DNA of 36,433 nucleotides from a virus: IMG/VR virus record IMGVR_UViG_3300029319_000177, positions 1-36,433 of that record. One strand, given 5' to 3'. Each line of letters starts with the position of its first letter. The stretch's first letter is position 1. This document shows positions 1,697 through 16,738 of this stretch, one piece after another. The position numbers and the translations under genes were made by a program. The notes beneath the pieces are model-generated. The model had not been told where the DNA came from. It was given only the letters and a program-made list of their open reading frames with translations, and searched no databases.

Positions 1697-2361
1697 TACG
1701 CTACCTCCTTTTTGTTAATAATAGAAATAATGTATTCAATATGTTTTTGTTCTTGTATTGCATCTGACATTTTTGTTACTGCAAAATGATTTTTAAATTT
1801 ATCATTTATTTCATCAAATTTACTTCTATCATCATTAAATATTTTATTTAACTGCATAATCCATTCTTCTTTTTCCTGATCTGATAAAGCAGTATCTAAT
1901 TGTTTTCCATAATATTGCGTAGCTTCTTCTAACGCTTTATGTGTTTTATTTTCCTGTTGTTCATAAGCAAAACCAGCATCATCAACACCATGCCATAAAT
2001 TAAGCATACCTAAAGTTACATATCTTCTAAAATATGTTTTTGCACTACCGTATTCATATAAAGGATTTTGATTAACTCCTTTTGGTATAAATTTTCTGCT
2101 TGTAGGTAAACTTTCACCGCTTATATGATAAATAGTACTTGCTAAAACTTCTTTGCCATCAATAATTTCATCTGCATGATAAATATGTAAACCATTTTCA
2201 GCTAATTTAGGATTAACAACTGCACATATATAACCTAATTCTGCAAATTCAAATTCAAAACCCCTACCATTTTTTGTAGGAATTTTTGCAGTAGACATAG
2301 AAGTTAAAGGTGGTACTTCTTGCATAAATTTACATAATGCTGCTGTAATTTCTTTAGTCAT
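1696..2361 (-). CDS. erf: ERF-family single-strand annealing recombinase
   Basis: A 221-aa protein of the ERF superfamily (P22 Erf type), which anneals complementary single strands for phage recombination and circularisation. Supporting features are an N-terminal helix, then 'KNGRGFEFEFAELGYI' around residues 30-45, a strand-rich middle with 'SGESLPTS', and the family signature near 105-130: 'YGSAKTYFRRYVTLGMLNL' followed by Asp-Asp-Ala-Gly. The C-terminal third is charged and probably carries oligomer or SSB contacts. It overlaps the upstream 72-aa gene by 4 nt. With SSB on the same strand and a PD-(D/E)XK nuclease encoded divergently, it forms a nuclease/annealase/SSB recombination set. Confidence 0.9.
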   Translation of the reverse strand: MTKEITAALCKFMQEVPPLTSMSTAKIPTKNGRGFEFEFAELGYICAVVNPKLAENGLHIYHADEIIDGKEVLASTIYHISGESLPTSRKFIPKGVNQNPLYEYGSAKTYFRRYVTLGMLNLWHGVDDAGFAYEQQENKTHKALEEATQYYGKQLDTALSDQEKEEWIMQLNKIFNDDRSKFDEINDKFKNHFAVTKMSDAIQEQKHIEYIISIINKKEVA

Positions 2362-2607: not shown

Positions 2608-2633
2608 TTTATAAAAGAGTCTACCCCTTACAA
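2608..2633 (-). promoter_or_regulatory. Operator site 1 with possible minus-strand promoter for ERF/SSB operon
   Basis: GAGTCTACCCC at 2617-2627 is one of four copies of the phage operator. Read on the minus strand, a -35-like TTGTAA (2633-2628) abuts the operator, and TATAAA follows at 2613-2608, but the spacing (14 bp) is short, so the promoter itself is less convincing than the other three. The operator overlaps the stop codon of the 47-aa gene. Confidence 0.55.
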
Positions 2634-2764
2634 TTACATTTAATTATTTTACGTTTTAAACGTTCATTATCTAATAAAGCATCAGCTAATAATTCTAAAG
2701 GGTCATTTATGGCATAAAGATCCCTGTTTTTTATAAATTCCTTTAATTCCTTTTTTGAAGTCAT
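2621..2764 (-). CDS. Small charged protein, 47 aa
   Basis: An open frame from ATG at 2764 to TAG at 2623-2621, preceded by a good ribosome-binding site (AGAGGTT, 3 nt before ATG) and by a near-consensus promoter at 2793-2821. The product is helical, Lys/Glu/Leu-rich at its N-terminus ('MTSKKELKEF'), and ends in a basic tail with two cysteines ('KCNCKG'). Its promoter lacks the shared operator, so it could be an immediate-early protein, possibly a regulator. No family is recognised. Confidence 0.65.
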   Translation of the reverse strand: MTSKKELKEFIKNRDLYAINDPLELLADALLDNERLKRKIIKCNCKG

Positions 2765-2792
2765 AATAACCTCTAGGTTAGGATTTACTTAC

Positions 2793-2821
2793 ATAATAAC
2801 TGTAAAATATTCAATTGTTAA
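2793..2821 (-). promoter_or_regulatory. Minus-strand sigma70-type promoter for the 47-aa gene
   Basis: Reading the minus strand: TTAACA, 17-bp spacer, TATTAT. It lies about 29 nt upstream of the ATG at 2764 and diverges from the plus promoter at 2854. It carries no GRGTCTACCC operator. Confidence 0.65.
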
Positions 2822-2853
2822 GTTTTTTAAAAATTTTGTATTAAAACATAAGG

Positions 2854-2882
2854 TTGACATTGCCAAAAAATAGCCCATATTA
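2854..2882 (+). promoter_or_regulatory. Plus-strand promoter for the RHH/nuclease operon
   Basis: A perfect -35 TTGACA at 2854-2859 is followed at 16 bp by CATATT or at 18 bp by TATTAG. It overlaps the first two of the three 22-bp-spaced repeats, so a protein bound there would be expected to affect transcription. Confidence 0.6.
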
Positions 2883-2919
2883 GGCCAATAAATAGCCATT
2901 AAATTACCAAAAAATGACC
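2862..2919 (+). repeat. Three 14-bp repeats at exact 22-bp spacing (iteron-like)
   Basis: GCCAAAAAATAGCC at 2862-2875, GCCAATAAATAGCC at 2884-2897 and ACCAAAAAATGACC at 2906-2919. Copies 1 and 2 match at 13 of 14 positions, copies 1 and 3 at 11 of 14. Start-to-start distance is 22 bp both times, about two helical turns. They run from the -10 region of the plus promoter into the start codon of the RHH-like gene. Autoregulatory operator or replication iterons are both possible. Confidence 0.7.
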
Positions 2920-3528
2920 AATTCCCGACCAACACTATCTGAAGATCTTATTTCTAAAGTGTTAGCTATTAAGCCTAGTTACCTTACAAATACAGGGTTT
3001 ATTAACTATTTGATTGAATTAGGTTATCAGACTAGGTTACAACAACAAAAAAATATGCAAGACTATATACATAATAAACCTAAAGAATTAACAAGAAATA
3101 TAGAACAACAAAAAGAAGAACTAAAAGAAAAAAATAAAAAAGAAAAACAAGAAGAAAAAGTTATACCTGAAGATTTAAATGAATATAGAAGTTTAATTAT
3201 TGACTATTGGAAAGGTAAAAAAGGTGCAAAAACAAAACAAGCGTGGAAAATGCAAATTACTGAATTTAGAAAATTTTTAACAAAATATGGCAAAGCAGTA
3301 TTAAAAGATCAATTAGAAGCTGCAATTTTAGATGGTACGTGGAAGTCAATTAAGGTAATAAATTATGAACAATACTATTTAAAAAATAATAAATTTAATA
3401 ATCCTGAACCTAATGCCCATCCAAATGTAAAAGTTTTTAAAGCTAGTGAAGCAAATTTACCGCCAACTTTAGCTGAACTAAAACTACAAAATGCAGATAA
3501 ATTTATGGCAAATAAAAATGGATTGTAA
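2914..3528 (+). CDS. Putative ribbon-helix-helix DNA-binding/replication protein, 204 aa
   Basis: Residues about 5-45 fit a ribbon-helix-helix unit: strand 'RPTLSEDL', helix 'ISKVLAIKP', then a helix 'TNTGFINYLIELGYQ'. A long Lys/Glu/Gln linker (about 45-85) looks like coiled coil. The C-terminal part (about 88-155) has a 'YWKGKKGAKTKQAW' stretch and 'LEAAILDGTWKSIKVINYEQY', a pattern I associate with uncharacterised cyanobacterial and cyanophage proteins. Its ATG lies inside the third of the three 22-bp-spaced repeats, so autoregulation is likely if it binds them. It could also act at an origin, since no other initiator is visible. It is first in an operon with the PD-(D/E)XK nuclease. Confidence 0.6.
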   Translation: MTNSRPTLSEDLISKVLAIKPSYLTNTGFINYLIELGYQTRLQQQKNMQDYIHNKPKELTRNIEQQKEELKEKNKKEKQEEKVIPEDLNEYRSLIIDYWKGKKGAKTKQAWKMQITEFRKFLTKYGKAVLKDQLEAAILDGTWKSIKVINYEQYYLKNNKFNNPEPNAHPNVKVFKASEANLPPTLAELKLQNADKFMANKNGL

Positions 3529-4141
3529 ACAAATAAAAAATTACTTAAAACAAGATCCATTTATTGAATTTTATAAAAATGGGCATAAATATTATGATCT
3601 TAAAAAAAAACATATTGTACCTAGATCTATAAGTGATATTAAAGGCAAATTAAATTTTACTAATAAACAATTAGAAGAAGGAATAAAACGTGGAAATATA
3701 GTACATGAAGCATGCCATTGTTATGTAGAAACAAAAGATGATACGTTAGCACTTACATATGCTGGTCAATATAAAAACTATGTAGAAAATTTTATTAACG
3801 CAAAATTTTGGGATGAATTTGAAGTAGTAGTTTCAGAATTTATGCTAATTGATAGAAAACATGATATTGCAGGTACATTAGATTTAATTTTAAGAAACAA
3901 AAAAACAGGTGCATTAGTGTTAGCAGATATAAAAACTGGTCATGCAAATAAGGCAAAAATACAATTAGGTGGTTATTTGTACATGCTAAAAAATGCTTAC
4001 CCATTAATAAATATTGATTATTGCCAAATAATTTTTGCTTATAAAGATGAATGTACTAGAAAACGATATGAAGCAATAGATTGTTTAGCAGAATATGAAG
4101 CAGAAAAAACAATGTATTTTAAAAATCAACTGCAATGGTAG
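3518..4141 (+). CDS. PD-(D/E)XK nuclease (RecB/Cas4-like exonuclease)
   Basis: With the ATG at 3518 the protein is 207 aa; a start at 3491 would add nine residues but overlap the upstream gene by 38 nt instead of 11. It carries the RecB-type nuclease series: Arg58-Gly59...His63 ('RGNIVH'), Glu107, Asp122 in 'GTLD', Asp137-x-Lys139 in 'ADIKT', and Gln149...Tyr153 in 'QLGGY'. Such phage enzymes resect double-stranded ends to make single strands for the annealing protein, here ERF. It is the second gene of the RHH operon and, like that gene, lies upstream of the first operator-controlled promoter. Confidence 0.85.
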   Translation: MDCKQIKNYLKQDPFIEFYKNGHKYYDLKKKHIVPRSISDIKGKLNFTNKQLEEGIKRGNIVHEACHCYVETKDDTLALTYAGQYKNYVENFINAKFWDEFEVVVSEFMLIDRKHDIAGTLDLILRNKKTGALVLADIKTGHANKAKIQLGGYLYMLKNAYPLINIDYCQIIFAYKDECTRKRYEAIDCLAEYEAEKTMYFKNQLQW

Positions 4142-4150
4142 TTACTAACC

Positions 4151-4179
4151 TTGCTTTTTAGTAGAGTCTACCCTATATT
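4151..4179 (+). promoter_or_regulatory. Plus-strand promoter with operator site 2 in its spacer
   Basis: TTGCTT (4151-4156), 17-bp spacer, TATATT (4174-4179). The spacer contains GAGTCTACCC at 4164-4173, directly abutting the -10; the slightly larger GTAGAGTCTAC is palindromic around its central base. Transcription would start about 15 nt before the ATG at 4201. Confidence 0.72.
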
Positions 4180-4200
4180 GCGTTTAGACCCTAAAAACTA

Positions 4201-4437
4201 ATGTTAAGACTACGTTCTTTAATTACACTACCTTTTAGAATGTTTTTTGGTTGTATGTACACAATTAGAGAATACATTTTATTAGAACTACAAAAACAAA
4301 AAATTATTAAACTTGAACCAGATGATGCTCTAGATGAATTAGATACATATATATGGTTACAAGCATTTGATGACCAAAAAATACTATCTACAACTGTAAA
4401 TTATTTAGAAAATTGCTATGCAAAAAGTGAATCCTGA
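4201..4437 (+). CDS. Hypothetical protein, 78 aa
   Basis: Not recognised. The N-terminal 30 residues are basic and hydrophobic ('SLITLPFRMFFGCMYTIREY') and could lie on or in a membrane; the remainder is acidic and helical. It is the first gene after the operator-controlled promoter at 4151-4179 and overlaps the next gene by 20 nt. Confidence 0.62.
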   Translation: MLRLRSLITLPFRMFFGCMYTIREYILLELQKQKIIKLEPDDALDELDTYIWLQAFDDQKILSTTVNYLENCYAKSES

Positions 4438-4753
4438 TCTTTCAAACGAAAAATTTTTAAATACACCAGATAACATTTTGGTGAATATAAGAAAACAACA
4501 AAAGATTATTTTAGAAGCTACTAAAATGATAAAAGGGTTAAAAGCAGAATTAGAAGCACATAAAGAAAATGGTGCAATAATGTCTAAATTTAGTAGTAAT
4601 GGTATTAGTGCTACTAGAACATATAAACCTAATTGGATTTATTCAGATGCCCTTACAGCAGAAATAAATTTATTAGAGCAAAGAAAAAATGCAGAACAAA
4701 ATGATGGTGTAGCAAAAATAGGTGTAAAAAATTATTATTGGTTAGTCAAATGA
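4418..4753 (+). CDS. Hypothetical protein, 111 aa
   Basis: Not recognised. The first half is predicted helical with a coiled-coil-like stretch ('QQKIILEATKMIKGLKAELE'), then a Ser/Gly/Thr-rich segment and a second charged helix. Its TGA overlaps the following ATG (ATGA). Confidence 0.6.
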   Translation: MQKVNPDLSNEKFLNTPDNILVNIRKQQKIILEATKMIKGLKAELEAHKENGAIMSKFSSNGISATRTYKPNWIYSDALTAEINLLEQRKNAEQNDGVAKIGVKNYYWLVK

Positions 4754-4899
4754 ATAAATTAGATCAAATTATAAATTTAAAAGATAAAATTGCTGCTAAT
4801 ACAGATAGATTCTATTTTGAAAATGATTATAGCCTAGATGAATACAATAAAAGGCATGATGAATTACATGCAGAATTAAAGGTGCTAGAAAATGAATGA
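4750..4899 (+). CDS. Small hypothetical protein, 49 aa
   Basis: An open frame from ATG at 4750 to TGA at 4897-4899, overlapping the upstream stop by 4 nt and the downstream ATG (4892) by 8 nt. It fills the gap between two neighbours with the same tight spacing as the rest of the operon, which is the main reason for calling it. The product is charged and helical ('MNKLDQIINLKDKI' at its start), with no membrane segment. Confidence 0.6.
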   Translation: MNKLDQIINLKDKIAANTDRFYFENDYSLDEYNKRHDELHAELKVLENE

Positions 4900-5335
4900 T
4901 GAAAAATTACAAAAACTTTTTGCTTTAGCATCTAATAATGCAAATTTAAATGAAGCTAGTGTTGCAGCTTTAAAATTTGTAAAAGCATTGCAAAAATCAG
5001 GTAAACCAATAAATATTAATTTTGGTGAATCTAAGTTATATACAGAACAACAAGTACGTAATGTAGCTGATAATGCGTATGATAAAGGTAAAAAATGGGG
5101 TTATGAAGAAGGATTTAATGAAGGCAAATTACAACAAAAAACAGCATATAATAACGGATTTAGTAATGGTTATAGTGTAGGCAAAAGTGAAGGTTATAAA
5201 CTTGGACTACAAAAAAATATTAACGACCAAAATATTAATAATAACAATAATATTGTGTATCATAATCAAACTGCTACAGCTACTATAAGAGTAGATTCAA
5301 ATAATACAGGTAGGATTACTTTTAATGGTAACTGA
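4892..5335 (+). CDS. GX3-repeat protein with DUF2786-like N-terminus, 147 aa
   Basis: Residues 4-36 ('KLQKLFALASNNANLNEASV' then 'AALKFVKAL') resemble the DUF2786 helical module, which is also seen at the start of the protein at 10306-11109. Residues 66-105 contain two runs of glycine every fourth residue: G66, G70, G74, G78, then G89, G93, G97, G101, G105, most with an aromatic or Lys next to them. This resembles the deca-GX3 pattern of Yae1-type eukaryotic proteins, where it forms a packed helix. The C-terminal third is Asn-rich and probably disordered. Function unknown. Confidence 0.65.
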   Translation: MNDEKLQKLFALASNNANLNEASVAALKFVKALQKSGKPININFGESKLYTEQQVRNVADNAYDKGKKWGYEEGFNEGKLQQKTAYNNGFSNGYSVGKSEGYKLGLQKNINDQNINNNNNIVYHNQTATATIRVDSNNTGRITFNGN

Positions 5336-5423
5336 AGAAAAAATTGCTAATGCAAAAAAAAGAATTAAAGAATTGCAAAAGTTAATTGATTATTGGTTAC
5401 AACAAAAAAATGGAAGAAATTAA
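5325..5423 (+). CDS. Micro-ORF, 32 aa
   Basis: ATG at 5325 overlaps the upstream stop by 11 nt, and the TAA at 5421-5423 overlaps the next gene by 14 nt. The product is a single amphipathic, Lys-rich helix ('KKRIKELQKLIDYWLQQK'). It is called because it bridges two coupled genes; it may be only a translational relay. Confidence 0.45.
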   Translation: MVTEEKIANAKKRIKELQKLIDYWLQQKNGRN

Positions 5424-6093
5424 TTTAATACCAGCTACATCTATACCACGTATAAACCCTATAAAGATACCTATAGAGCAATCAATACCTAATACGCAAC
5501 ATGTAACTAAAATATTGCCACCTACTCTTACAATGCCTTGTGTAACCCTTAGAAATGATGGTACGCAAAACAATCAATTATTTATAGATGATCCTACAAA
5601 CAATAGAACAATATGCCCTTTACCTTATTATGTGCCAATACAATACAACGCTAAAGAAATACAGTTAATTGAAGAAGCAAAACCACCAACTAATGTAGAT
5701 GCACTAGAAACAAATGTAGAAAATCCTGAAGTACCTGAAATACCTGAAGAAACAAAAATAGAATGTCCAGATCCAAAAAAAAATAATCCTAGAATTGGTG
5801 ATCTAAATAGTGCAGGTACAGAAAAAGTAACTGGTTTTAAATTAATAGAAGAAGAATGTGTAATTTTATGGACTCCTACAACACAAATTGAAAAATATTT
5901 GCCAAGCCTAAATACCGTATCTACCACATTTGCAATAACAATAGTAGCCACTACCGCAGCAACATTAACACCAATATTAAACAAAATATTAAAACCATTA
6001 TTTAAACAAATTATTAATAAGGTTAAAAAATTATTTGGTAAAAAAGGTACAAGATTTAAAGGTAAAAAACCTAGAAAATCAAAACTTACTTAA
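5410..6093 (+). CDS. Cyanophage-type conserved protein with C-terminal membrane segment, 227 aa
   Basis: The ATG at 5410 is used ('MEEINLIPATSIPRI'). Pro/Ile-rich N-terminus; then 'PCVTLRNDG' near residue 43 and 'IDDPTNNRTICP' near 59-70; an acidic Pro/Glu linker (about 95-125); a conserved-looking block 'NNPRIGDLNSAGTEKVTGF'; and a final hydrophobic segment (about 172-198) followed by a strongly basic tail of Lys and Arg. This order matches a protein I associate with marine T4-like and podo-like cyanophages, where its role is unknown. It may be membrane- or virion-associated. It meets the minus-strand gene at 6086 tail to tail, with 8 bp of shared coding sequence and no terminator between them. 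Confidence 0.62.
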   Translation: MEEINLIPATSIPRINPIKIPIEQSIPNTQHVTKILPPTLTMPCVTLRNDGTQNNQLFIDDPTNNRTICPLPYYVPIQYNAKEIQLIEEAKPPTNVDALETNVENPEVPEIPEETKIECPDPKKNNPRIGDLNSAGTEKVTGFKLIEEECVILWTPTTQIEKYLPSLNTVSTTFAITIVATTAATLTPILNKILKPLFKQIINKVKKLFGKKGTRFKGKKPRKSKLT

Positions 6094-6736
6094 GATTATG
6101 CGTATGGTTAATAGTAGGTGGTGTTACTAATTCTATATCCTCGCATAGTTTTGCCATAGGTGTATTAGCTTTAAACCTAAATCCATCAAGTAAATTTTGA
6201 TGACATGTTTTTGCCCTACTCATTTCAAAATTTAAACGTTTTGCAGCTAGTGATGCTTCATATAATTCATTTTGTTTTTTCATTGCAGCCCTACATTCTT
6301 TTAAAGCCTTTCTATCTAATGGAATACTAAATGTAGCTGTAATACCACCATTAATAGAAGTATTAGATTGTTTCATGCCAGTACGCACTTTTTCAAAATA
6401 TAATATTTCACCTCTATAACCTGTATCTACATCACCATCACCTGTAGGATCTCCGTCATCATCAAAATCACCTTCTATATCTCTATTGCTATATATAGGT
6501 CTATCCCAATATGGTTCATAAGGTGTTGAAAATCCATAAGTTGTAGAAACAAATGGAGAAATATTTAAAGTTGCACCTTGACATACAATAGTATTCATTT
6601 GGTACTGAAATTGCCTAGAAGGTACTACTTGTACAGCTTGATTTACAACACTTCCAGAACTATTGCTAGTTGTATTTACAGATGTAGCAAAAACAGGATT
6701 ATTAATAAATAACAATAAAAGTAAATATTTTTTCAT
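6086..6736 (-). CDS. Secreted protein of unknown function, 216 aa
   Basis: A clear Sec signal peptide (basic start 'MKKY', a Leu-rich core, cleavage expected after 'PVFA' near residue 17). The mature part has a region with 'CQGATLNISPFVSTTYGF', then an Asp/Gly-rich stretch near residues 90-107 ('GDFDDDGDPTGDGDVD') that could bind calcium, and a C-terminal charged helical region with further cysteines ('ALKECRAAMKKQNELYE', then 'TCHQNL'). Last gene of a four-gene minus-strand operon with two other secreted proteins. I associate similar proteins with marine cyanophages, role unknown. It overlaps the upstream gene by 4 nt. Confidence 0.7.
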   Translation of the reverse strand: MKKYLLLLLFINNPVFATSVNTTSNSSGSVVNQAVQVVPSRQFQYQMNTIVCQGATLNISPFVSTTYGFSTPYEPYWDRPIYSNRDIEGDFDDDGDPTGDGDVDTGYRGEILYFEKVRTGMKQSNTSINGGITATFSIPLDRKALKECRAAMKKQNELYEASLAAKRLNFEMSRAKTCHQNLLDGFRFKANTPMAKLCEDIELVTPPTINHTHNLK

Positions 6737-7161
6737 TGACTAAACGTACTTGTTGTATCAGTAATATTTTCAATTTGCGTAGTACGCATAATATGTGTGT
6801 AATTAGTTAAACCACCGCCTTCAAAAGTTTCGTAGTACATGAATGGCTGCCCTTCTTCTATGATCGAAAACGTAGGTTTAGTATCTAAATTAGGTGAAAC
6901 ATATGTAGTACCTGTACCTTGTACTGTTGTATCTACTTTAGTCCAACCACTAGGGTTAACAAAACCAGTATCACTTTCTACGTTTTCACCACCAACTGTA
7001 AGAGAATAACCTGTAGAGAAATCAAAACTTTTTATGTCCTCTACTGTGGTACTTTTAGTTTCACTACGTTGGTTTAAAACTCCTTGCTGAAAATTAGGAA
7101 TTACATTTTGAGCATAAACAGGAATATTAAATAAAGCTATTAGCAGAATTAGCTTTTGCAT
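6733..7161 (-). CDS. Secreted protein with 'LTVGG' motif, 142 aa
   Basis: Signal peptide at residues 1-17 (a hydrophobic core 'LILLIALFNIPVYA', cleavage before Gln). The mature part is Ser/Thr/Gly-rich and predicted beta-rich. 'YSLTVGGENVESDTGF' around residues 52-67 shares the 'LTVGG' core with the neighbouring 172-aa secreted protein, suggesting related folds or a shared assembly. There are no cysteines in the mature part. The gene lies 3 nt downstream of its upstream neighbour. Not assigned to a family. Confidence 0.68.
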   Translation of the reverse strand: MQKLILLIALFNIPVYAQNVIPNFQQGVLNQRSETKSTTVEDIKSFDFSTGYSLTVGGENVESDTGFVNPSGWTKVDTTVQGTGTTYVSPNLDTKPTFSIIEEGQPFMYYETFEGGGLTNYTHIMRTTQIENITDTTSTFSQ

Positions 7162-7164
7162 TTA

Positions 7165-7683
7165 TTAATCCACAATTAATGTAGTTGTTATTTGTCCGAG
7201 TGCTTCAGTATTTGCGCCACCTGCTGAAATTGTTAATTTTTGAGAATTAGTAACAGTACCAGCTAAATTGCCAACTGTACCACCTGCAATAGATACAACA
7301 TCATCAGAATAATTAGCAGCATCACCAGTAGTTACAGCACTATTTTGTATAGCATCCGCTTGATTAAAAGATTGACTAAAACTAAAATTATTTGCTGGTA
7401 CGTCTTGTGTAACAGTTAAATCTGGTGGCGTACCAACTCCTGAAGAAATTACTAAAGAACCAACACCATTAGCAACAGCATTATCACCAGAACCATGCGT
7501 TGTATCAACTCCAACACCGCTTACGCTATAGCTGCTACCTAAACGTGTAGAAGAAGTTGAAGCACCACCTACAGTTAATTTTACAGAACTAGAAATAGAA
7601 TGACTAAGATCGGCATTAACTCTAGAACAACTACCAAAAGGTGTAGTTATTAACAATAGTCCAAAAATTAAAAACTTTTTCAT
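7165..7683 (-). CDS. Secreted beta-rich protein with 'LTVGG' motif, 172 aa
   Basis: Signal peptide with core 'FLIFGLLLITTPFG'; the cysteine near residue 19 lies near the end of the core, so a lipoprotein is possible but the lipobox is poor. The mature protein is Ser/Thr/Val/Gly/Asn-rich with almost no charged clusters, typical of an extended beta structure, and includes 'SSSVKLTVGGAST' early on. Such composition occurs in secreted fibrils, adhesins and phage decoration proteins, but I recognise none here. Overlaps the upstream membrane-protein gene by 4 nt. Confidence 0.66.
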   Translation of the reverse strand: MKKFLIFGLLLITTPFGSCSRVNADLSHSISSSVKLTVGGASTSSTRLGSSYSVSGVGVDTTHGSGDNAVANGVGSLVISSGVGTPPDLTVTQDVPANNFSFSQSFNQADAIQNSAVTTGDAANYSDDVVSIAGGTVGNLAGTVTNSQKLTISAGGANTEALGQITTTLIVD

Positions 7684-7913
7684 TTAATACCTACCTTGTT
7701 GTTTTGATTTTCAACAGTTAATTTTTTTTGTGTGTTTTTGCCTTTAACCTGAACACCATAAGTACTAGCTATGTTACCAACAAGACCAGCAGCAAAAGTA
7801 TCAAGTCTTATGCGTTCCATGTACCCTAAAGTCATAACCGCTAAAGACCACCCAAGAATAATAAGCCTTATAAAATGCCCAAAATAATCAGGTTTTTCAT
7901 CTTGTTCTTCCAT
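7680..7913 (-). CDS. Small membrane protein, 77 aa; holin candidate
   Basis: The ATG at 7913 is preferred to an upstream TTG at 7964, giving 'MEEQDEKPDYFGHFIRL'. A charged N-terminus is followed by a hydrophobic segment ('LIILGWSLAVMTLGYM', about residues 16-31), a second weakly hydrophobic stretch 'FAAGLVGNIASTYGV', and a basic tail with Lys and Asn. This is first in the operon with three secreted proteins. Size and layout allow a holin or other lysis role, and no other lysis gene is evident. Similar short proteins occur in cyanophages without known function. The assignment is inference. Confidence 0.6.
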   Translation of the reverse strand: MEEQDEKPDYFGHFIRLIILGWSLAVMTLGYMERIRLDTFAAGLVGNIASTYGVQVKGKNTQKKLTVENQNNKVGIK

Positions 7914-7936
7914 AGATAGAAGGCAAATATACTTAT

Positions 7937-7964
7937 ATACTAAAGTAAATATTAATCTCTGCAA
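7937..7964 (-). promoter_or_regulatory. Possible minus-strand promoter for secreted-protein operon
   Basis: Minus strand: TTGCAG (7964-7959), 16-bp spacer, TAGTAT (7942-7937), about 24 nt before the ATG at 7913. Its -35 is identical to that of the promoter upstream of the terminase genes. No shared operator is present. Confidence 0.4.
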
Positions 7965-8579
7965 ATGATTAAAGCAATTAACAAAAGAAGTGAGTTCTTA
8001 TTCCCTACGCAATACGTAGCTGGTGAAATACCAGATTTTGACCAAATACAAGAAAAATTAATTGAATGGGTATATAAATATAAAGAAGAAAATAATGACA
8101 TTGCACGTATAAGTAATAAAGGTGGCTGGCAATCGCAAAAAAAAGACGTATATCAAGATGCTGGTTTTCAGCAATTTCACAACATAATTATCCCACTAAT
8201 TAGTGAATTATTAAGTGAATTTCAAATTACCTTACAAGCTGATTTGGTACAAATGTGGATAAACATTAATGGCAAAGGTGCATATAACGTAAGCCACCGC
8301 CACCCATTAGCAGATTTTAGTGGTGTTATATGGATTAAGCAAAGCCCAGAACAAGGTAGATTTATTTTTGATAATATGGATGTTGGTTATAGGGATTGTA
8401 GTAGCTTGTATTTTATGAATAGGGATTATTTAATAAAAAATAAAATGCTACCTGAATGGCATCCTGAATATAAAGACGGATCTATAATTATATTTCCAGC
8501 AATGTTTACGCATAGAGTAGAACAAAATGAAACAGATGAAGATAGAATTAGTTTATCTTTTAATATTAAGCTAAAGTAA
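7965..8579 (+). CDS. 2-oxoglutarate/Fe(II)-dependent oxygenase (marine phage type)
   Basis: A 204-aa double-stranded beta-helix oxygenase of the putative 2OG-Fe(II) family common in marine phages. Iron ligands fit 'HRHPLADFSG': His111 or His113 and Asp117, with distal His183 in 'FTHRVEQN'; Arg194 in 'DEDRISLSFN' fits the 2-oxoglutarate anchor. 'GAYNVSHRHP' and 'GSIIIFPAMFTHRV' match the family layout well. It uses O2 and 2-oxoglutarate to hydroxylate an unknown substrate (protein, nucleic acid or small molecule). It is transcribed divergently from the secreted-protein operon, with 51 bp between starts, and followed by a 53-aa gene. Confidence 0.85.
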   Translation: MIKAINKRSEFLFPTQYVAGEIPDFDQIQEKLIEWVYKYKEENNDIARISNKGGWQSQKKDVYQDAGFQQFHNIIIPLISELLSEFQITLQADLVQMWININGKGAYNVSHRHPLADFSGVIWIKQSPEQGRFIFDNMDVGYRDCSSLYFMNRDYLIKNKMLPEWHPEYKDGSIIIFPAMFTHRVEQNETDEDRISLSFNIKLK

Positions 8580-8598
8580 AAATACAATATAAAAACAA

Positions 8599-8760
8599 AT
8601 GGCATTACTACGCAAAGTATTTAGGTTTTTAATACGTAAAAATTTTTTTAAAGATGTATTAATATATGCCCTAAAAGAATTAGCAAAAATGACGGATAAT
8701 GGCCTAGATGATCAATTTGTAAGAGTAATTGAAGCTAGACTATACCCTAAAGGTAAGTAA
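8599..8760 (+). CDS. Small conserved-looking protein, 53 aa
   Basis: ATG at 8599 to TAA at 8758-8760. The N-terminal third is basic and hydrophobic ('MALLRKVFRFLIRKNFFKD'), followed by 'LIYALKELAKMTDNGLDDQ' and a charged C-terminus. I associate this arrangement with a short protein found in many marine cyanophages, function unknown. It lies 19 nt after the oxygenase gene and before two terminator hairpins, so it ends that transcription unit. Confidence 0.65.
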   Translation: MALLRKVFRFLIRKNFFKDVLIYALKELAKMTDNGLDDQFVRVIEARLYPKGK

Positions 8761-8835
8761 TTAGGTTGCAATATTAAATGCTTTAGTTAGCGTTTGTTTG
8801 GTTGCCTTGATGCAGAGCAATGGTCAACTAGCCTT

Positions 8836-8870
8836 AACCCCTGCATGTACCTAGTAGGGGTTTTGGTTTG
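8836..8870 (+). terminator. Plus-strand intrinsic terminator after the 53-aa gene
   Basis: AACCCCT (8836-8842) pairs with AGGGGTT (8856-8862) across a 13-nt loop, followed by TTGGTTTG, a moderate U-tract. The preceding 75 bases can form further weak stems (TAGTT with AACTA, TTGC with GCAA), so the trailer may be structured. Confidence 0.6.
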
Positions 8871-8872
8871 CC

Positions 8873-8899
8873 AAAAAAAAAGACCCTGTTAAAGGGTCT
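8873..8899 (-). terminator. Minus-strand intrinsic terminator after the 103-aa gene
   Basis: AGACCCT (8881-8887) and AGGGTCT (8893-8899) form a perfect 7-bp stem with a 5-nt loop. On the minus strand it is followed by nine U residues (8881-8873). It lies 11 bp after the stop of the gene at 8910-9221. Confidence 0.85.
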
Positions 8900-8909
8900 A
8901 GATATGTAT

Positions 8910-9221
8910 TTATTTTTTTGTGTAATCACCTCCTTTAGCAACCCATGTACAAAACTCTTCAGTAAATGAATAAAGATATTTACCTTTATCAAAAACATTC
9001 ATATCTTCATAACGCATTTCAACATATACAATTTCTTTTTTTAATAAACTGCTAAGTAATCCTTCAGCTACTTTGACATTAATACCAGCTTTTAAAAGAT
9101 CGTTAAAGTCAAAATAAACATAGGCTGGATCAATACCAACCCATTCACCCCATTTTGTTTGATCAACAGAAGCAACTGTTAGAAATTGTTGCTCTTTTTC
9201 TGTCATGTAGTATTTGTTCAT
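8910..9221 (-). CDS. Hypothetical protein, 103 aa
   Basis: Not recognised. A strong Shine-Dalgarno sequence (AAGGAGGG) precedes the ATG at 9221. The protein is acidic and aromatic, with 'WVGIDPAYVYFDFNDLL' and a predicted alpha/beta mix; no membrane segment. Second gene of a two-gene unit bounded by the promoter at 9454-9482 and the terminator at 8873-8899. Confidence 0.68.
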   Translation of the reverse strand: MNKYYMTEKEQQFLTVASVDQTKWGEWVGIDPAYVYFDFNDLLKAGINVKVAEGLLSSLLKKEIVYVEMRYEDMNVFDKGKYLYSFTEEFCTWVAKGGDYTKK

Positions 9222-9234
9222 TATTTTGCCCTCC

Positions 9235-9411
9235 TTATATTTTTTCTAGTTCGATCATTACAGCGTCAGCTACTTGTGCTGCTCTCCATGCTGCTAATGA
9301 TGAAAAACTCATTAACTTGTTTACTACGTCTTGCTTAGTAAATGTTTCACCTAGTATTGCTGCATCTATGATGCTGTTGCAAGTTTTGTCGATTGTCCAA
9401 AGTTTAGGCAT
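9235..9411 (-). CDS. Hypothetical protein, 58 aa
   Basis: ATG at 9411 is preferred ('MPKLWTIDKT'); a TTG at 9438 in the same frame would add nine residues. Neither has a clear Shine-Dalgarno sequence. A 10-codon open frame (9416-9448) begins at or near the predicted transcript start and ends 4 nt before this ATG, so translation may depend on reinitiation. The product is helical ('SLAAWRAAQVADAVMIELE'), family unknown. Confidence 0.58.
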   Translation of the reverse strand: MPKLWTIDKTCNSIIDAAILGETFTKQDVVNKLMSFSSLAAWRAAQVADAVMIELEKI

Positions 9412-9415
9412 TTGT

Positions 9416-9448
9416 TTAAAGTGATAGTGGGTATCCAACCCTGTTCAT
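9416..9448 (-). CDS. Possible leader peptide, 10 aa
   Basis: ATG at 9448 to TAA at 9418-9416, encoding MNRVGYPLSL. The -10 hexamer ends at 9454, so the transcript would start around 9446-9448, making this ORF leaderless or nearly so. It stops 4 nt before the ATG of the 58-aa gene. Confidence 0.3.
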   Translation of the reverse strand: MNRVGYPLSL

Positions 9449-9453
9449 TTACT

Positions 9454-9482
9454 ACTATAGGGTCTACCCCTAGATATGTCAA
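9454..9482 (-). promoter_or_regulatory. Strong minus-strand promoter with operator site 3 in its spacer
   Basis: Minus strand: TTGACA (9482-9477), 17-bp spacer, TATAGT (9459-9454). The operator GGGTCTACCCC (9460-9470 on the plus strand) directly abuts the -10, as at site 2. Drives the genes at 9235-9411 and 8910-9221. Confidence 0.8.
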
Positions 9483-9502
9483 CAATATTACTAATATTTA
9501 AC

Positions 9503-9606
9503 AAAAAAAGTAGTGGGATTTGGATTAACACTATCTGTTACCTTGTCTTGGTTATAACTTTCAAGTTAGATACGGGCAAAAAACTAACTATCAGGAATCC
9601 CACTAT
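9503..9606 (-). ncRNA. Putative branched structured RNA ending in a U-tract
   Basis: A perfect 10-bp inverted repeat, TAGTGGGATT (9511-9520) with AATCCCACTA (9596-9605), encloses 75 bases. On the minus strand the second arm is followed directly by CUUUUUUUG. Inside are further stems: GTTAG with CTAAC, AACTT with AAGTT, and GTT..ACC with GGT.AAC. This would be a multi-branched RNA closed by a terminator-like stem, at the 3' end of the operon 11109-9618. It may be only an elaborate terminator, or a small RNA processed from the transcript. No tRNA T-arm or known riboswitch core was recognised. Confidence 0.5.
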
Positions 9607-9617
9607 ATAAGTTTATA

Positions 9618-9938
9618 CTATCTGCATACCTCCTTAAAAAACCAAAAACTTTCTGAATTAAACCAATGTTCTGGTGGGTTAAAAAAAGAATACATATAAT
9701 CACCACAATCATCCCTAACACCATCAATTCTATAATTTATACCATTGTGCTTAATCCACATATTTGAATCTCTACTAAGCCAATTATTAATATCAACATC
9801 ATCCCAATAATCTGTTTTTAGTAGCTTATGAAATGCTTGATTGGCCTGTAAGGATAGATGTGCAACATTTATATGTGTTGTACTAAATCTATCCATTGAA
9901 TTGGTTATAAGGTTAACCAGTAGTTGTTTAGTGTTCAT
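9618..9938 (-). CDS. Hypothetical protein, 106 aa
   Basis: The ATG at 9938 is chosen: it overlaps the upstream stop (ATGA) and is preceded by AGGA; a TTG at 9971 is less likely. The protein is Trp/Asn/Asp-rich ('NNWLSRDSNMWIKHNGINY' near the middle, 'PPEHWFNSESFWFF' near the end) and looks globular. Family not recognised. Last gene before the structured RNA at 9503-9606. Confidence 0.62.
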   Translation of the reverse strand: MNTKQLLVNLITNSMDRFSTTHINVAHLSLQANQAFHKLLKTDYWDDVDINNWLSRDSNMWIKHNGINYRIDGVRDDCGDYMYSFFNPPEHWFNSESFWFFKEVCR

Positions 9939-10168
9939 TGTTCTTTTTCCTGTAAATAAAGTTCTGTCCAAATTTTTGGATCAATTAATTTATTAATGCG
10001 TTTGCATTGTTCAATAGTTAGTTCACCAAAAACTAAATCAAAAATGTCAGCTTCTTCACCTTGTTCGACCATTTTCCAAAATGCTTGTCTAGTTGTTTTA
10101 ACTGAAAAATTCCATGCTTCTGCTGTTTGTGTAGCTGAAATTTTATATGTTGGTTTTTTGTTGTTCAT
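9935..10168 (-). CDS. Hypothetical protein, 77 aa, possible DNA-binding
   Basis: The ATG at 10168 has GGAG 8 nt upstream and overlaps the TGA of the 45-aa gene. Residues from 'ISATQTAEAWNFSVKTTRQA' onward could be a helix-turn-helix: helix, turn, then a helix with 'TTRQAFWKMV'. The second half is acidic and ends with charged helices. If it binds DNA it is a third candidate for the regulator of the GRGTCTACCC sites. The helix-turn-helix reading is weak. Confidence 0.58.
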   Translation of the reverse strand: MNNKKPTYKISATQTAEAWNFSVKTTRQAFWKMVEQGEEADIFDLVFGELTIEQCKRINKLIDPKIWTELYLQEKEQ

Positions 10169-10302
10169 TGTTTTGACTCCAAATAAGTACATGCGTTTTC
10201 AATACCTGAATTACAATCGTTTACTGTCATATCATGTAAGGATTGTGAAAGGGATATATAAAATATCCCTGTTGCTGCAAATAGCATTAATATAGTTTGC
10301 AT
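10165..10302 (-). CDS. Small secreted or membrane-anchored protein, 45 aa, two cysteines
   Basis: ATG at 10302, 3 nt after the stop of the DUF2786 gene, to TGA at 10167-10165, which overlaps the next ATG (ATGA). The first 19 residues ('MQTILMLFAATGIFYISLS') are a signal peptide or membrane anchor; the rest is small and polar with Cys30 and Cys38, which could form a disulfide outside the cytoplasm. Called from the precise coupling on both sides and the clear protein character. Function unknown. Confidence 0.6.
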   Translation of the reverse strand: MQTILMLFAATGIFYISLSQSLHDMTVNDCNSGIENACTYLESKQ

Positions 10303-10305
10303 TGT

Positions 10306-11109
10306 TTAGTACCCTGCTATTTGTCTTTGACTATTGCCAGACATTTGTCTGCTAAGACCAACCTGACCACCAGCAGCACGACCAGCATCCGCACCAGTAC
10401 CGCCATTTGTATAGCCAGTACCACGACTTAAAGAAGGATGACGTTCAGCATAAAATTCTTCTACTTTTGCTAATTCTGCTTTATTAGCATTAATAACAGT
10501 TAATGCAGAAACATTAATAGTTTTATCTGCTAATTGTAGTTGCCTACCATTTTTTTGTTCTTCAGATTTCATTTTATTGAATCTGTTTCTAACCTCCCAT
10601 GCCCAGTTTTTTCTAAAACTGTTTCTATGTGCTGCACCTTCCAAAGCAACTTGAAATGGATCTTCTTGGCAATGTCTAGCCCACGCATCTTGTAATGCTT
10701 CTATCAAGTATGAAGAATAAATTTCTATTTCAATTTGTCTAGCTTTATTAGCTGAGATTTCTATTTGTCTGTGTCCAACATATTTACCACCTTCAGTAAT
10801 GTATGTTTTGTTGTCAGCTTTAAATGGTGTAAATACAATTTTACCGTTATAAAAATCTGCAACAGCAGAAACAATAATAGATACTGCTGGATCAATACGC
10901 TTGTAAGGTGTACCCCATCTAAAGGCAATAACTTCAATTTCTTCATCTAATACTGAAGTATCACCTATTTGCTGTTCTAATTGCTCAAGTGTTATACCTC
11001 TAGCTTTTAGTTGCTGTTCTAATTTTGCTTCAGCAGCTTTAGCTTCATTAGGATTAGTACTTGCTGTTAATGCAAGAATTTTTGAAAGAACGTTTAACGA
11101 TCTTGACAT
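10306..11109 (-). CDS. DUF2786 domain protein, 267 aa
   Basis: Residues 6-40 ('LSKILALTASTNPNEAKAAE' and following) match the DUF2786 pattern of a short helical hairpin with a conserved Asn-Glu-Ala. The middle (about 55-185) is an alpha/beta domain as in the DUF7168 region often paired with DUF2786, with 'YVGHRQIEISANKARQIEIE' and 'AHRNSFRKNWAWEVRNRF'. The tail is Gly/Ser-rich. The family is frequent in phages, molecular role unknown. GGGAG lies about 10 nt before the ATG; the promoter at 11145-11173 with operator site 4 drives it. Confidence 0.75.
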   Translation of the reverse strand: MSRSLNVLSKILALTASTNPNEAKAAEAKLEQQLKARGITLEQLEQQIGDTSVLDEEIEVIAFRWGTPYKRIDPAVSIIVSAVADFYNGKIVFTPFKADNKTYITEGGKYVGHRQIEISANKARQIEIEIYSSYLIEALQDAWARHCQEDPFQVALEGAAHRNSFRKNWAWEVRNRFNKMKSEEQKNGRQLQLADKTINVSALTVINANKAELAKVEEFYAERHPSLSRGTGYTNGGTGADAGRAAGGQVGLSRQMSGNSQRQIAGY

Positions 11110-11144
11110 GATAGTAAGTCTCCCGACTAAGGTTTACAATTAAA

Positions 11145-11173
11145 ATATTACTATAGGGTCTACCCCTTGTCAA
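11145..11173 (-). promoter_or_regulatory. Strong minus-strand promoter with operator site 4 in its spacer
   Basis: Minus strand: TTGACA (11173-11168), 17-bp spacer, TAATAT (11150-11145). The operator GGGTCTACCCC lies at 11156-11166. The flank CTATAGGGTCTACCCC is shared with site 3. It drives the operon 11109-9618. Confidence 0.8.
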
Positions 11174-11177
11174 CTAT

Positions 11178-11402
11178 TTAATTTATTAGCTCTAAACTAT
11201 GTTGTGCATTTTCGCTTCTTTTATTGTCATCCCATTGTATGTTGTAGTAATAATGCTTGCTACCTCTACTGTTTTCTTTTGTTTTTACACCATAAATTAC
11301 ACCAGTTCTTTTTTCCGTAATTTTTGTAGTGCCAAATATATTTTTACGTAAAACTTTATCGCCTATTTTAAATTTTTGTCCAATTAATTGATTTTTAGGC
11401 AT
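11178..11402 (-). CDS. Hypothetical SH3-like beta protein, 74 aa
   Basis: A small basic protein with 'KFKIGDKVLRK' near its start, 'RTGVIYGVKTKENS' in the middle and 'YYYNIQWDDNKR' later. This run of strands resembles small SH3-like barrels that bind nucleic acid or protein, but no family is certain. Its ATG overlaps the end of the 25-aa ORF by 8 nt. Confidence 0.6.
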   Translation of the reverse strand: MPKNQLIGQKFKIGDKVLRKNIFGTTKITEKRTGVIYGVKTKENSRGSKHYYYNIQWDDNKRSENAQHSLELIN

Positions 11403-11472
11403 GATTTATAAAATTTTTTAAAAAAATGTACAACAATACAACTAAACAAATCCAAACAACAAATGTAGTCAT
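11395..11472 (-). CDS. Single-pass membrane micropeptide, 25 aa
   Basis: ATG at 11472, 1 nt after the upstream stop (TAATATG), to TAA at 11397-11395, overlapping the next ATG by 8 nt. The product is almost entirely one hydrophobic helix ('TTFVVWICLVVLLYIFLKNF') with a short polar tail. Coupling on both sides and the clean membrane helix support a real gene. A lysis or membrane-accessory role is possible; nothing proves it. Confidence 0.5.
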   Translation of the reverse strand: MTTFVVWICLVVLLYIFLKNFINHA

Positions 11473-11473
11473 A

Positions 11474-11704
11474 TTAAAACCCTGCTCTAATTGGTTTTTT
11501 TATTGGTATTGGTTGTCCTGTAACTTTAGGAATACTAGGCATTACATCAGGTAACATTTTTTTTATTTCATCCATAACGTATTGTTTTGTTTTTTCTTGG
11601 TTTTCAGGATTAGTTATATAAAAATAAGAATACAAAACACCGCCTGACATAGTTAATGTCAATACTGCACTAATTACAGAAATACAATCTAAAAATTTAC
11701 GCAT
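11474..11704 (-). CDS. Membrane-anchored protein, 76 aa
   Basis: The ATG at 11704 ('MRKFLDCISV') is preferred; a start at 11728 would add eight Lys-rich residues. A single N-terminal membrane helix ('VISAVLTLTMSGGVLYSYFY') is followed by 'ITNPENQEKTKQYVMDEI' and a Pro-rich tail ('PKVTGQPIPIKKPIRAGF'). I associate this layout with small proteins of marine cyanophages and cyanobacteria. It overlaps the upstream gene by 8 nt. Confidence 0.62.
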   Translation of the reverse strand: MRKFLDCISVISAVLTLTMSGGVLYSYFYITNPENQEKTKQYVMDEIKKMLPDVMPSIPKVTGQPIPIKKPIRAGF

Positions 11705-11900
11705 CTGTTTTTTCTCCTTTTTCTTCAATTTCTTCTTTTTTTGGTAAAAATTCTTTTAATACTGCAATTTTTTCTTGACATGAAAAAGCTAATGTTTTTG
11801 CTTGTTCTAATGTAGATGCAGTTTTTTGCGCTAAATCAACGTAATAATCTTTTTCTTTTTGCAATGCTGCAATTTTGTCGTTAATTTCTTGTTCTGTCAT
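11697..11900 (-). CDS. Coiled-coil protein, 67 aa
   Basis: Nearly all helix: heptad-like Leu/Ile/Ala spacing through 'INDKIAALQKEKDYYVDLAQ' and on to residue 50, then a Lys/Glu tail. The ATG is at 11900, with no clear ribosome-binding site. It comes 75 bp after the last fibre gene with no convincing terminator between them, so it may be co-transcribed with the late block. Confidence 0.6.
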   Translation of the reverse strand: MTEQEINDKIAALQKEKDYYVDLAQKTASTLEQAKTLAFSCQEKIAVLKEFLPKKEEIEEKGEKTDA

Positions 11901-11975
11901 AAGTACCTATTATGATTTATTTTTTAATTATAGCTTTATATATTTAAATTACTAGCTTTTATAAAATTCACATAA

Positions 11976-14498
11976 TTATACTTTAGATTCCAACATAGTA
12001 ACTTTTGCAGATAATTCTTGTATTGCTTTTGTTAGTACAGCTACAACTTCATTAGTGTCTAAAGCATAAGCTCTAGCAAAACCTTTTTCATTTGGTGTAT
12101 TTGCTTTGTCTCCAAGATAATTAACACATTCTGGTATATGCTCCATAATTTCTTGTGCAATAAAACCAAGATTAATATTATCATCACCTTGTTTTTCTAA
12201 CTGTGAATTAATTAATTGGTATTTACGTGGTTTTAATTTATTTACAACGTCTAAACCATATGGGCAATCAACAATATCAGTTTTAGCTCTTCTATCGGAA
12301 GCGTTGTAATTACCACCATCAAGTAACATATTTGCAGAAAAATCAGAACCATTACCGCCACCTGTCCATGACGAGTGTGTTCTAGCTGTACCATGAAATC
12401 TAAAATAAGCACTATTATCAGTATTATTTGTACCGTCATTACAATCTCTAGTCATACTAAAACTAGGTTGATTTTCCCATTCTCTATCTATATTTATGCC
12501 AGCTTGTCCAAATTGAACACCACCTACATGATCTACTGAAAAAGCACGTTTACCGTTGGTACTATCATTAGCTCTATGATAAATACTAAAATGATCGTAA
12601 TTATTTCTACCATCATTTCTACCGCCATCAGTATTTAAAATTATTACACAACCACCTTTTGATTGAATTTTTCCCCAATAACCATCATTTTGATCACCAT
12701 AACCACTTGCATCAGGATAATTAGTTACACCAAATATTGTTGAAAAATCATTAGAATTTTGACCCCTTTCAAAATGTATTCCGTTTTGACTTAACGTACC
12801 ATTGTTATTGTGATAAACACCGCTACTGCCTGTAGCAAATTTTTTTGTACCGTTATTATATAATTCAACACCAGAATCTTGAAAAAACCTTGCTAAATGT
12901 TCGTTTTCAGCAGCATTTGTAAAACTTATTGAGTTACTTTTTAAAATTAATTCACCTGTGCCTTGTTCTGAAATGTAAGATCCGTTTCCGTTGTGATAAA
13001 TTTTTAAATCGTTTGAACTTCCAATTTGTAATCCAATGCTTCCATCAGGTATATGCATTGTTGTTGTTACATTTAAAGCACCTGTAACTTGTACGCCAGC
13101 ACTTGTAGTTTCAAACTTTTTATTACCTGAGTGATATATTTCTACAGATCCGTTAGGTATAAGATTTACACCATATTGACCACCTTTAGGTTGTATTTCT
13201 ACTTGCCCTGCTGAATTACCTCTTATTCTTAAAATTCCAGTTATTACATTATCAAGGTAAGAATTTGTACCATCATGATATATTTTTACATCCCCTGAGT
13301 TTCCAAGTTGTATCTGAGCATTATCTATAGCAACTAAGCCACCATGAAACTTAACATCATTAGTTCTAGTCTCTAGTCTTAAATTGCCATTATGATATAA
13401 TTCCGCAGCACCAGCAGATCTTGCAACTAGTCTATTATTTGAAGCACTACTATTAGCACCAGCATGAATATGAACATCACCATTATTAATTTGCCTAATG
13501 TGCAAGCCAGCACCATTTGATTCGATTTTATCTATGTTAGAAGCATGATAAATTTGTAGGTCATTACTATCACCGAATCCTATTTTTTTATTATCTGGTA
13601 TGTTTATAAAGTCTCTATGAACATAAAAAACTTTATCCCAAGAACTATTATTCCAATGATGAAACTGTAAATGATTATCACTTCCAGTAGGATTATCTGA
13701 TCCAGATGTCATTCCAATAGCAAAAGCATTTGAGTTAGCTCCTTGCCATTGAACATATTTACCAGCATCTAAACCTATTAAATGTCCATATAATTTAGTT
13801 CCATTTGTATAAGTCTCAAACTTTTTACTGTTGTTGTGATATAACTCTACTGCTCCGTTTTGAGTGAAAGTTGCATAGGTTTCATTATTAGAAGCATTTT
13901 TAAATACTAAAGAATCAGAATTAGTTGTTAAAACTTGTCCTCCAGTAACCGCTATAAAATTGTTAGTACTTCCATTATGATAAATTTTTAAATCTTCACC
14001 ATCTCCAGCAGAAAGTCTTTTACTATCTGGTACTTTTATGCCTAGCGGTGTGGTTTCAAAGGTTTTCGTGTTGTCGTAATAGAGTTCTACTGCTCCATCT
14101 TGAATGCAGTTAATAAATTGCTCGCCATTCTTACTGTCAATGTTTACATGATTACTTTGAATATATAAATTTCCTGTTCCAGTATCGTCAATATAACTGT
14201 GACTTCCATCATGAAATATCTCTAGATCATTACCAGTTCCAAACCTAGCTTTTACATTATCGTTAAAATCTACACCATTACTACCGCCAACTTGTGTTAT
14301 TGCATTAGTAGAAGCAGCAGTTATAAGTCCTTTTGCATTAATAGTTAAAGATAATGTTGCACTACTAGATCCATATGACCCTGCTGTAACTCCTGAATCA
14401 GCTAATTTACTGCCAGCTATGTTTGCAGCACTATGCAAATGGTTATTAGTAATAACGTTATTTTTAATACCAGAACCACTTACTTGTGTTTGTGTCAT
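11976..14498 (-). CDS. Tail fibre/spike with C-terminal S74 intramolecular chaperone, 840 aa
   Basis: Preceded by TTGGAGG. The N-terminus has fibre-type 'ITNNHLHSAANIAGSKLADS'. From about residue 85 to 590 a two-part unit recurs five times: a 'DLKIYHNGS'-type strand pair (variants DLEIFHDGS, DLQIYHASN, DVKIYHDGT, DLKIYHNGN) and a 'GAVELYHNN.K.FET' partner. The last 110 residues, starting 'ASDRRAKTDI' and including 'GFIAQEIMEH' and a final coiled coil, form a peptidase S74 domain, which trimerises the fibre and cuts itself off at the Ser of the Ser-Asp pair. Acts at host recognition. The repeats are typical of marine cyanophage fibres. Confidence 0.88.
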   Translation of the reverse strand: MTQTQVSGSGIKNNVITNNHLHSAANIAGSKLADSGVTAGSYGSSSATLSLTINAKGLITAASTNAITQVGGSNGVDFNDNVKARFGTGNDLEIFHDGSHSYIDDTGTGNLYIQSNHVNIDSKNGEQFINCIQDGAVELYYDNTKTFETTPLGIKVPDSKRLSAGDGEDLKIYHNGSTNNFIAVTGGQVLTTNSDSLVFKNASNNETYATFTQNGAVELYHNNSKKFETYTNGTKLYGHLIGLDAGKYVQWQGANSNAFAIGMTSGSDNPTGSDNHLQFHHWNNSSWDKVFYVHRDFINIPDNKKIGFGDSNDLQIYHASNIDKIESNGAGLHIRQINNGDVHIHAGANSSASNNRLVARSAGAAELYHNGNLRLETRTNDVKFHGGLVAIDNAQIQLGNSGDVKIYHDGTNSYLDNVITGILRIRGNSAGQVEIQPKGGQYGVNLIPNGSVEIYHSGNKKFETTSAGVQVTGALNVTTTMHIPDGSIGLQIGSSNDLKIYHNGNGSYISEQGTGELILKSNSISFTNAAENEHLARFFQDSGVELYNNGTKKFATGSSGVYHNNNGTLSQNGIHFERGQNSNDFSTIFGVTNYPDASGYGDQNDGYWGKIQSKGGCVIILNTDGGRNDGRNNYDHFSIYHRANDSTNGKRAFSVDHVGGVQFGQAGINIDREWENQPSFSMTRDCNDGTNNTDNSAYFRFHGTARTHSSWTGGGNGSDFSANMLLDGGNYNASDRRAKTDIVDCPYGLDVVNKLKPRKYQLINSQLEKQGDDNINLGFIAQEIMEHIPECVNYLGDKANTPNEKGFARAYALDTNEVVAVLTKAIQELSAKVTMLESKV

Positions 14499-14527
14499 TT
14501 ATTAAGCCTCCAATGCTTTTATTCTAC

Positions 14528-16714: not shown

Positions 16715-16738
16715 AGCTATAACCTCCTATTAAAAAAA

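Follow-up and report, generated by a model that had tools for sequence, protein, structure and literature searches.

The window analyzed here is the whole of IMG/VR virus record IMGVR_UViG_3300029319_000177 (36,433 bases), which encodes lambda-type packaging and tail genes and comes from a siphovirus of an uncultured marine lineage. Its terminase is nearest to those of Synechococcus phages S-CBS1 and S-CBS3 (~39% identity). The protein encoded at 6086-6736 has 425 phage matches, all named Synechococcus, Prochlorococcus, or cyanophage except for 1 environmental record and 10 labeled only "Marine." These names make a picocyanobacterium the likely host as judged from gene content, and the low G+C of the window (32%) would fit Prochlorococcus. 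The features that enter the analysis are the following.

1117-1506, minus strand: SSB (Pfam PF00436), in the same operon as ERF.
1499-1696, minus strand: 65-aa ribbon-helix-helix-like protein (cluster cl27), by inference the best candidate operator binder.
1696-2361, minus strand: ERF-family single-strand annealing protein (Pfam PF04404), the first conserved gene of the O1 operon.
2617-2627, minus strand: operator O1, GAGTCTACCCC on the plus strand, preceding the ERF operon; the window shows no clear promoter here.
2621-2764, minus strand: 47-aa protein; its counterpart in relatives is a 53-aa gene (cl22) that overlaps the ERF operator at its end.
2861-2910, plus strand: 5-bp boxes with 11-bp phasing in the 2914 gene's promoter, forming a distinct and presumably self-regulatory element.
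2914-3528, plus strand: 204-aa protein (cl7) with a variable ribbon-helix-helix-like N terminus, not favored as operator binder.
4151-4179, plus strand: promoter P2, with -35 TTGCTT (4151-4156), a 17-bp spacer, and -10 TATATT (4174-4179); operator O2, GAGTCTACCC (4164-4173), adjoins the -10.
4201-5335, plus strand: small-gene operon downstream of P2, including the conserved 111-aa gene cl8.
8910-9438, minus strand: accessory cassette downstream of P3, two genes, neither with relatives in the 18 genomes compared.
9454-9482, minus strand: promoter P3, with -35 TTGACA (9477-9482), a 17-bp spacer, and -10 TATAGT (9454-9459); operator O3 (9460-9470) adjoins the -10.
9618-11109, minus strand: operon downstream of P4, comprising a phrog_421 gene (10306-11109) and small genes.
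11145-11173, minus strand: promoter P4, with -35 TTGACA (11168-11173), a 17-bp spacer, and -10 TAATAT (11145-11150); operator O4 (11156-11166).

The motif GRGTCTACCC occurs in five exact copies, four intergenic (2617, 4164, 9460, and 11156) and one in a tail gene (25293). Read on the plus strand, the intergenic copies are GAGTCTACCC at 2617 and 4164 and GGGTCTACCC at 9460 and 11156. A first-pass annotation of this DNA had reported these four; all were recovered in place, and their excess over shuffled sequence is clear. Allowing up to one mismatch, there are 6 matches versus 0.65 expected, a count reached by 0/100 shuffles. The exact copy at 25293, absent from that annotation, falls within the tail gene at 25166-25516, is translated there as GVDP, and seems to be a coding coincidence; a one-mismatch copy at 32006 is also coding. 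The shortness of the motif and its exact coding copy are what could be said for a chance or compositional coincidence without function, a reading contradicted both by the shuffle tests and by the anchored conservation described below and thus exceedingly improbable.

Three of the intergenic copies lie in the 17-bp spacer of a promoter, as had been proposed for 4164, 9460, and 11156. The accompanying description of the hexamers as near-consensus was wrong for 4164, because the P2 -35 is weak, with three mismatches. P3 is the best promoter match in the window and the sole place where a perfect -35 is followed, across a 17-bp spacer, by a -10 with no more than one mismatch. P4, where the operator lies 2 bases past the -35, is among the 20 best-scoring promoter places, whose spacers make up 0.44% of positions. 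The sites at 4164 and 9460 both directly adjoin the -10, as the annotation had it. At 2617, the minus strand is without an acceptable 17-bp promoter, and the promoter hexamers there, judging from the sequence, have decayed. O1 shares bases with the stop codon of the 47-aa gene, and in relatives the ERF operator likewise overlaps the end of the 53-aa counterpart. This overlap of the ERF operator with coding sequence may account for part of its conservation. The suggestion of four controlled operons therefore stands for three promoters, the fourth site being an orthologous operator without a good promoter.

In relatives, the palindrome takes the form GGG(G)TATACCC and lies in orthologous promoter spacers. 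A scan for TTGACA-N1..9-GGGTATACCC yielded a contig set that had been selected by the motif itself, and conservation was for this reason tested at anchored loci chosen independently of the motif. Among the scan matches listed, those with a 1-base gap are nearly all in AT-rich contigs and have a -10 at exactly 17 bases. At the anchored loci, which are mutually related and so represent non-independent trials, the operator orthologous to O1 is present upstream of ERF in 41/41 contigs versus 2.8% in the shuffle null (loci found via a protein search with the 65-aa protein), the one orthologous to O4 in the promoter spacer upstream of the 267-aa gene at 21/24 loci versus 0.5% in shuffled sequence, and the one at the P2 position, between the exonuclease and cl8 genes, in promoter context and at the same position and register in 15/16 genomes. 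The 16th genome has the palindrome there and no recognized promoter. Within the P2 spacers of relatives, the seven preceding bases vary freely and GGGTATACCC is nearly constant. Across 18 related records, we counted 62 operator sites versus 4 for a reversed control motif. Further, a relative syntenic with the window (L064; ERF ~59% identity) has GGGTATACCC-like palindromes within 17-bp spacers at the orthologous places. An AccI-type site (GTMKAC) serving as a methylation switch was ruled out, as the ERF operators read GTAAAC and some promoters GTTAAC.

The pattern that would speak against such an operator, promoters retained in relatives with the motif lost, was found at only 3/24 anchored promoters. 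In L070, the 267-aa gene is 72 to 76% identical to that of the window and keeps a consensus-like promoter with the operator absent, and L073 likewise is without the operator; a promoter can therefore exist without the palindrome. In G009, the 267-aa gene is present, and the early module (cl7, cl27, ERF, and SSB) and the operator are both absent. The orthologous spacers of relatives strongly support the proposal that several operons share a single operator placed in their promoter spacers, and the motif is almost certainly, on this comparative evidence, a real and lineage-wide phage operator.

The relatives also reveal a constant header, consisting of promoter, operator, and then leader, that precedes highly variable small genes. 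The leader contains CCGRRAGG at 83/109 promoters. Grouping the 106 genes that come directly behind such promoters gave 39 families, of which 23 have a single member. An RNA element as the main function was ruled out: the palindrome is upstream of the predicted start, and there was no Rfam match.

Outside the lineage, TTGACAGGGGTATACCC gave only 11 scattered matches in one genome each of 84,980 host species, about chance level or below and none of them in cyanobacteria, suggesting that the operator's binder is probably phage-encoded. The phage might instead borrow a host circuit, with a host transcription factor binding the site: it is the host's polymerase that transcribes from phage promoters, and a cyanobacterial binder with other spacings is conceivable. 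The host scan and the lack of a literature match for the motif speak against this, and a host regulon was rejected as unlikely after the scan; we give such a factor very little weight. Isolate phages had no good match to either the promoter header or the 267-aa protein, no operator was found in S-CBS1 or S-CBS3 (nearest by terminase), and the collection searched held no cultured member of the lineage. The window-type pattern TTGACA-N1..9-GGGTAGACCC gave 63 matches over viral contigs, mostly coding or chance. The informative ones are in L028, which is identical to the window, and in L012/L024, where the cyanophage genes in common and a TTGACA-16-TATACT promoter with the motif are suggestive only. 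Literature searches on the motif and on cyanophage ribbon-helix-helix regulators returned no relevant match.

A spacer of 17 bp is the optimum for sigma70 promoters. The promoter spacers are constant at this length, and the palindrome begins 1, 3, or 7 bases past the -35. Its placement in several helical phases within fixed 17-bp spacers fits steric blocking and favors repression, and the sequence pattern makes it quite likely that the site is a repressor site. The first-pass annotation had left it open whether a bound factor would block or remodel promoter recognition; blocking is favored, and remodeling is less likely given the differing phases and the 17-bp spacers. MerR-type regulation involves an over-long spacer of 19 to 20 bp, and the spacers here are 17 bp.

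Alternatively, the factor acting at the site could be an activator or a Q-like antiterminator, and the regulon would be switched on, not off. Lambda Q binds its promoter between the -35 and the -10, a location like that of the palindrome; some promoters have a poor -35 (TTGCAT, TTTATA), and a conserved leader follows many of them, which would also suit such a factor. However, several promoters are near-consensus and should need no help, the differing helical phases relative to the -10 would be hard for a factor contacting polymerase in one geometry, and MerR-type untwisting, which acts on a long spacer, is excluded by the 17-bp length. Activators, antiterminators, and MerR-like proteins are all disfavored because each would need a fixed geometry, which steric blocking would not, and we consider switching on unlikely.

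The window and 15 relatives (16 records, several incomplete) yielded neither an integrase nor an HTH_3 gene, in agreement with the earlier remark that no CI/Cro-like repressor is visible; a CI/Cro-type lysogeny switch, with HTH_3 repressor and integrase, was likewise not seen in these records. Two proteins with a possible DNA-binding fold are present in both the window and the operator-bearing relatives, the 65-aa (cl27) and 204-aa (cl7) proteins. The 65-aa gene is located between ERF and SSB, so its own operon carries the operator. The protein and the operator occur together in every examined record whose contig covers its region, a co-occurrence confounded by shared ancestry and by the 41 ERF loci having been found via that protein. 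Among relatives, there is very little change in the predicted DNA-contact stretch (KNRxLVSSKL) or in the operator. The window differs in both, with KNRYRISAKL in the protein and a change of TATA to TAGA in the operator core, a co-change seen in one lineage only. The S/A residue before KL in cl27 has no clean covariation pattern with the operator core.

The ribbon-helix-helix assignment of the 65-aa protein is weak. Profile searches gave weak matches to SvtR and ParG, Foldseek returned CopG, StnY, and Arc among matches with E-values that are not significant, and there was no Pfam match to a ribbon-helix-helix family. Structure prediction gives both helices and models the expected strand as a low-confidence helix. 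Ribbon-helix-helix proteins have a G-X-S/T/N turn between the helices (PMC2812701), and this family has N-x-S or N-x-N where G-x-S is expected. Of the candidates named in the first-pass annotation, the comparison favors the 65-aa protein at 1499-1696, and as a reasoned guess it would be the operator binder, with somewhat better than even chances.

The repressor site might be bound instead by the 204-aa protein at 2914, through its N-terminal ribbon-helix-helix-like domain. This protein is present in 17/17 records covering its region, including the window, and the boxes of one type (ACCC) are similar to one half of the palindrome. Its N-terminal region, however, is of two types, with the same operator in both, and the boxes in its own promoter vary with the type, as expected of its real target: they read TACCC, TGTTC-like, or, in the window, GCC. 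Positions within the upstream stretch are 46, 57, and 68 for ACCC; 21, 32, 43, 54, 65, and 76 for the TGTTC-like boxes; and 33, 44, 55, and 66 in the window. Structure prediction for the 2914 protein gave a low-confidence helical model. The earlier proposal of this protein as the regulator is accordingly disfavored, and we regard its binding to the operator as improbable, slightly more so than activation at the site. The two other proposed regulators fare no better: tblastn found no match to the 77-aa protein at 9935 in the syntenic L064, and the 47-aa protein has no recognizable DNA-binding fold. Two regulators with two targets would be the simplest reading.

Returning to the 65-aa protein and repression, we propose that a small dimeric phage protein would bind the palindrome GGG(G)TNNACCC where it lies in the 17-bp spacers of promoters of the sigma70 type and block host RNA polymerase by steric exclusion. 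The promoters so controlled would be those of the ERF/SSB recombination operon, the conserved small-gene operon, the phrog_421 gene, and interchangeable accessory cassettes, and several early operons would be turned down together after an initial burst. The most likely binder would be the ribbon-helix-helix-like 65-aa protein, whose gene lies between those of ERF and SSB and whose own operon would be included, leading to negative feedback. We put the probability of this whole explanation (a dedicated phage operator, steric repression, and the 65-aa binder) at about 0.6; the operator, its position, and its conservation come from sequence, and we infer the rest. More tentatively, with the odds somewhat against it, the early phase might be run by two small regulators of separate specificity, together with a portable promoter-operator-leader header that takes interchangeable, probably anti-host, genes. 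The fixed regulator would act on the shared palindrome and the fast-diversifying one on its own 11-bp-phased boxes.

No description of the operator, the lineage, or the portable header was found in the literature searched, and early-gene control in siphovirus-type cyanophages is little described. The operator also marks early accessory genes at the sequence level; in archaeal viruses, such an approach led to anti-defense genes (PMC11065993). It provides a testable wiring diagram from sequence alone, with a named candidate regulator.

Systems in which a phage repressor has its operators in promoter spacers are already known. For P22 Arc, a small dimeric repressor, the operator lies in Pant between the -35 and the -10. 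Our proposal shares a small dimeric repressor with Arc/Mnt of P22, which are ribbon-helix-helix proteins, and the operator position with Arc, whereas Arc controls one accessory operon rather than several and its operator sequence differs. Arc and the 65-aa family can be aligned without gaps by eye; hhalign aligns only 18 columns, at 1.9% probability. Lambda Q-type antitermination combines a Q-binding element in the spacer with a Q protein and a promoter-proximal terminator, and the position in the spacer is the sole point of resemblance here. Aca repressors of anti-CRISPR operons act at an inverted repeat inside the core promoter and are small repressors from their own operon (PMC9410906). The palindrome in the core promoter and a candidate regulator encoded in the operon it would control are the same here, but the families in that report are helix-turn-helix proteins, HTH_3 was not found in our 16 records, and the site is also at recombination genes. 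Mycobacteriophage immunity repressors act at many sites across the genome, and their stoperators are asymmetric and also stop elongation (PMC9283540). Many sites per genome and, as proposed here, one repressor are shared with that system; our sites differ in being palindromic and in promoters. Finally, archaeal viruses have a nearly identical promoter region before unrelated small early genes, which one regulator is thought to shut down (PMC11065993). The constant promoter region before variable small genes is the same in both, but there the promoters are archaeal and the predicted regulator is a winged-helix protein (Aca8), whereas here the promoters are of the bacterial sigma70 type and carry the palindrome in their spacer.

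The promoter of the 2914 gene, which encodes a 204-aa protein with a variable ribbon-helix-helix-like N terminus, carries a series of short phased boxes.

2861-2910, 5-bp boxes with 11-bp phasing, promoter of the 2914 gene
7965-8579, 2OG-Fe(II) oxygenase gene (PF13759)

Across relatives, different N-terminal types of the 204-aa protein go with different box sequences in this promoter. The window and its identical copy both have the oxygenase gene, which all of the compared relatives lack. An IMG/VR contig (L028 and L067) matches window positions 4654-17021 with 100% identity over 12,368 bases, which gives the window sequence a second representative.

An operator-like palindrome, GGGTWWACCC, also occurs in the late region of related viral contigs.

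Late-region GGGTWWACCC in relatives:
L236/L235 (G003:9111)
G001:9117
G006:20476
G007:4262
G012:19935
G014:825

In G003 and G005, the late palindrome lies between the tail genes cl15 and cl14. No obvious sense promoter surrounds the late palindrome of the relatives, and in the window GGGTWWACCC is missing at the place matching their late-region site.

Two phages that share cyanophage genes cl1-cl4 and lack the early module (cl7, cl27, ERF, and SSB) carry GGGTAGACCC abutting the -10 of a TTGACA-16-TATACT promoter (L012:3675 and L024:9664); this motif may be either related to the operator or coincidental.

Many operator promoters of relatives (e.g., L133, L161, and L168) are followed, 3' of the -10, by a constant leader, GTACMMAACAACCGAGAGGTTTTCCAAATG, with a short GNRA-like stem (ACC-GAGA-GGT) covering the ribosome-binding site. 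Inspection by eye suggests that the leader of the window's minus-strand promoter P4 (11102-11130, minus strand) could form a small hairpin, AGTC-GGGA-GACT, apparently matching the style of the relatives' leaders.
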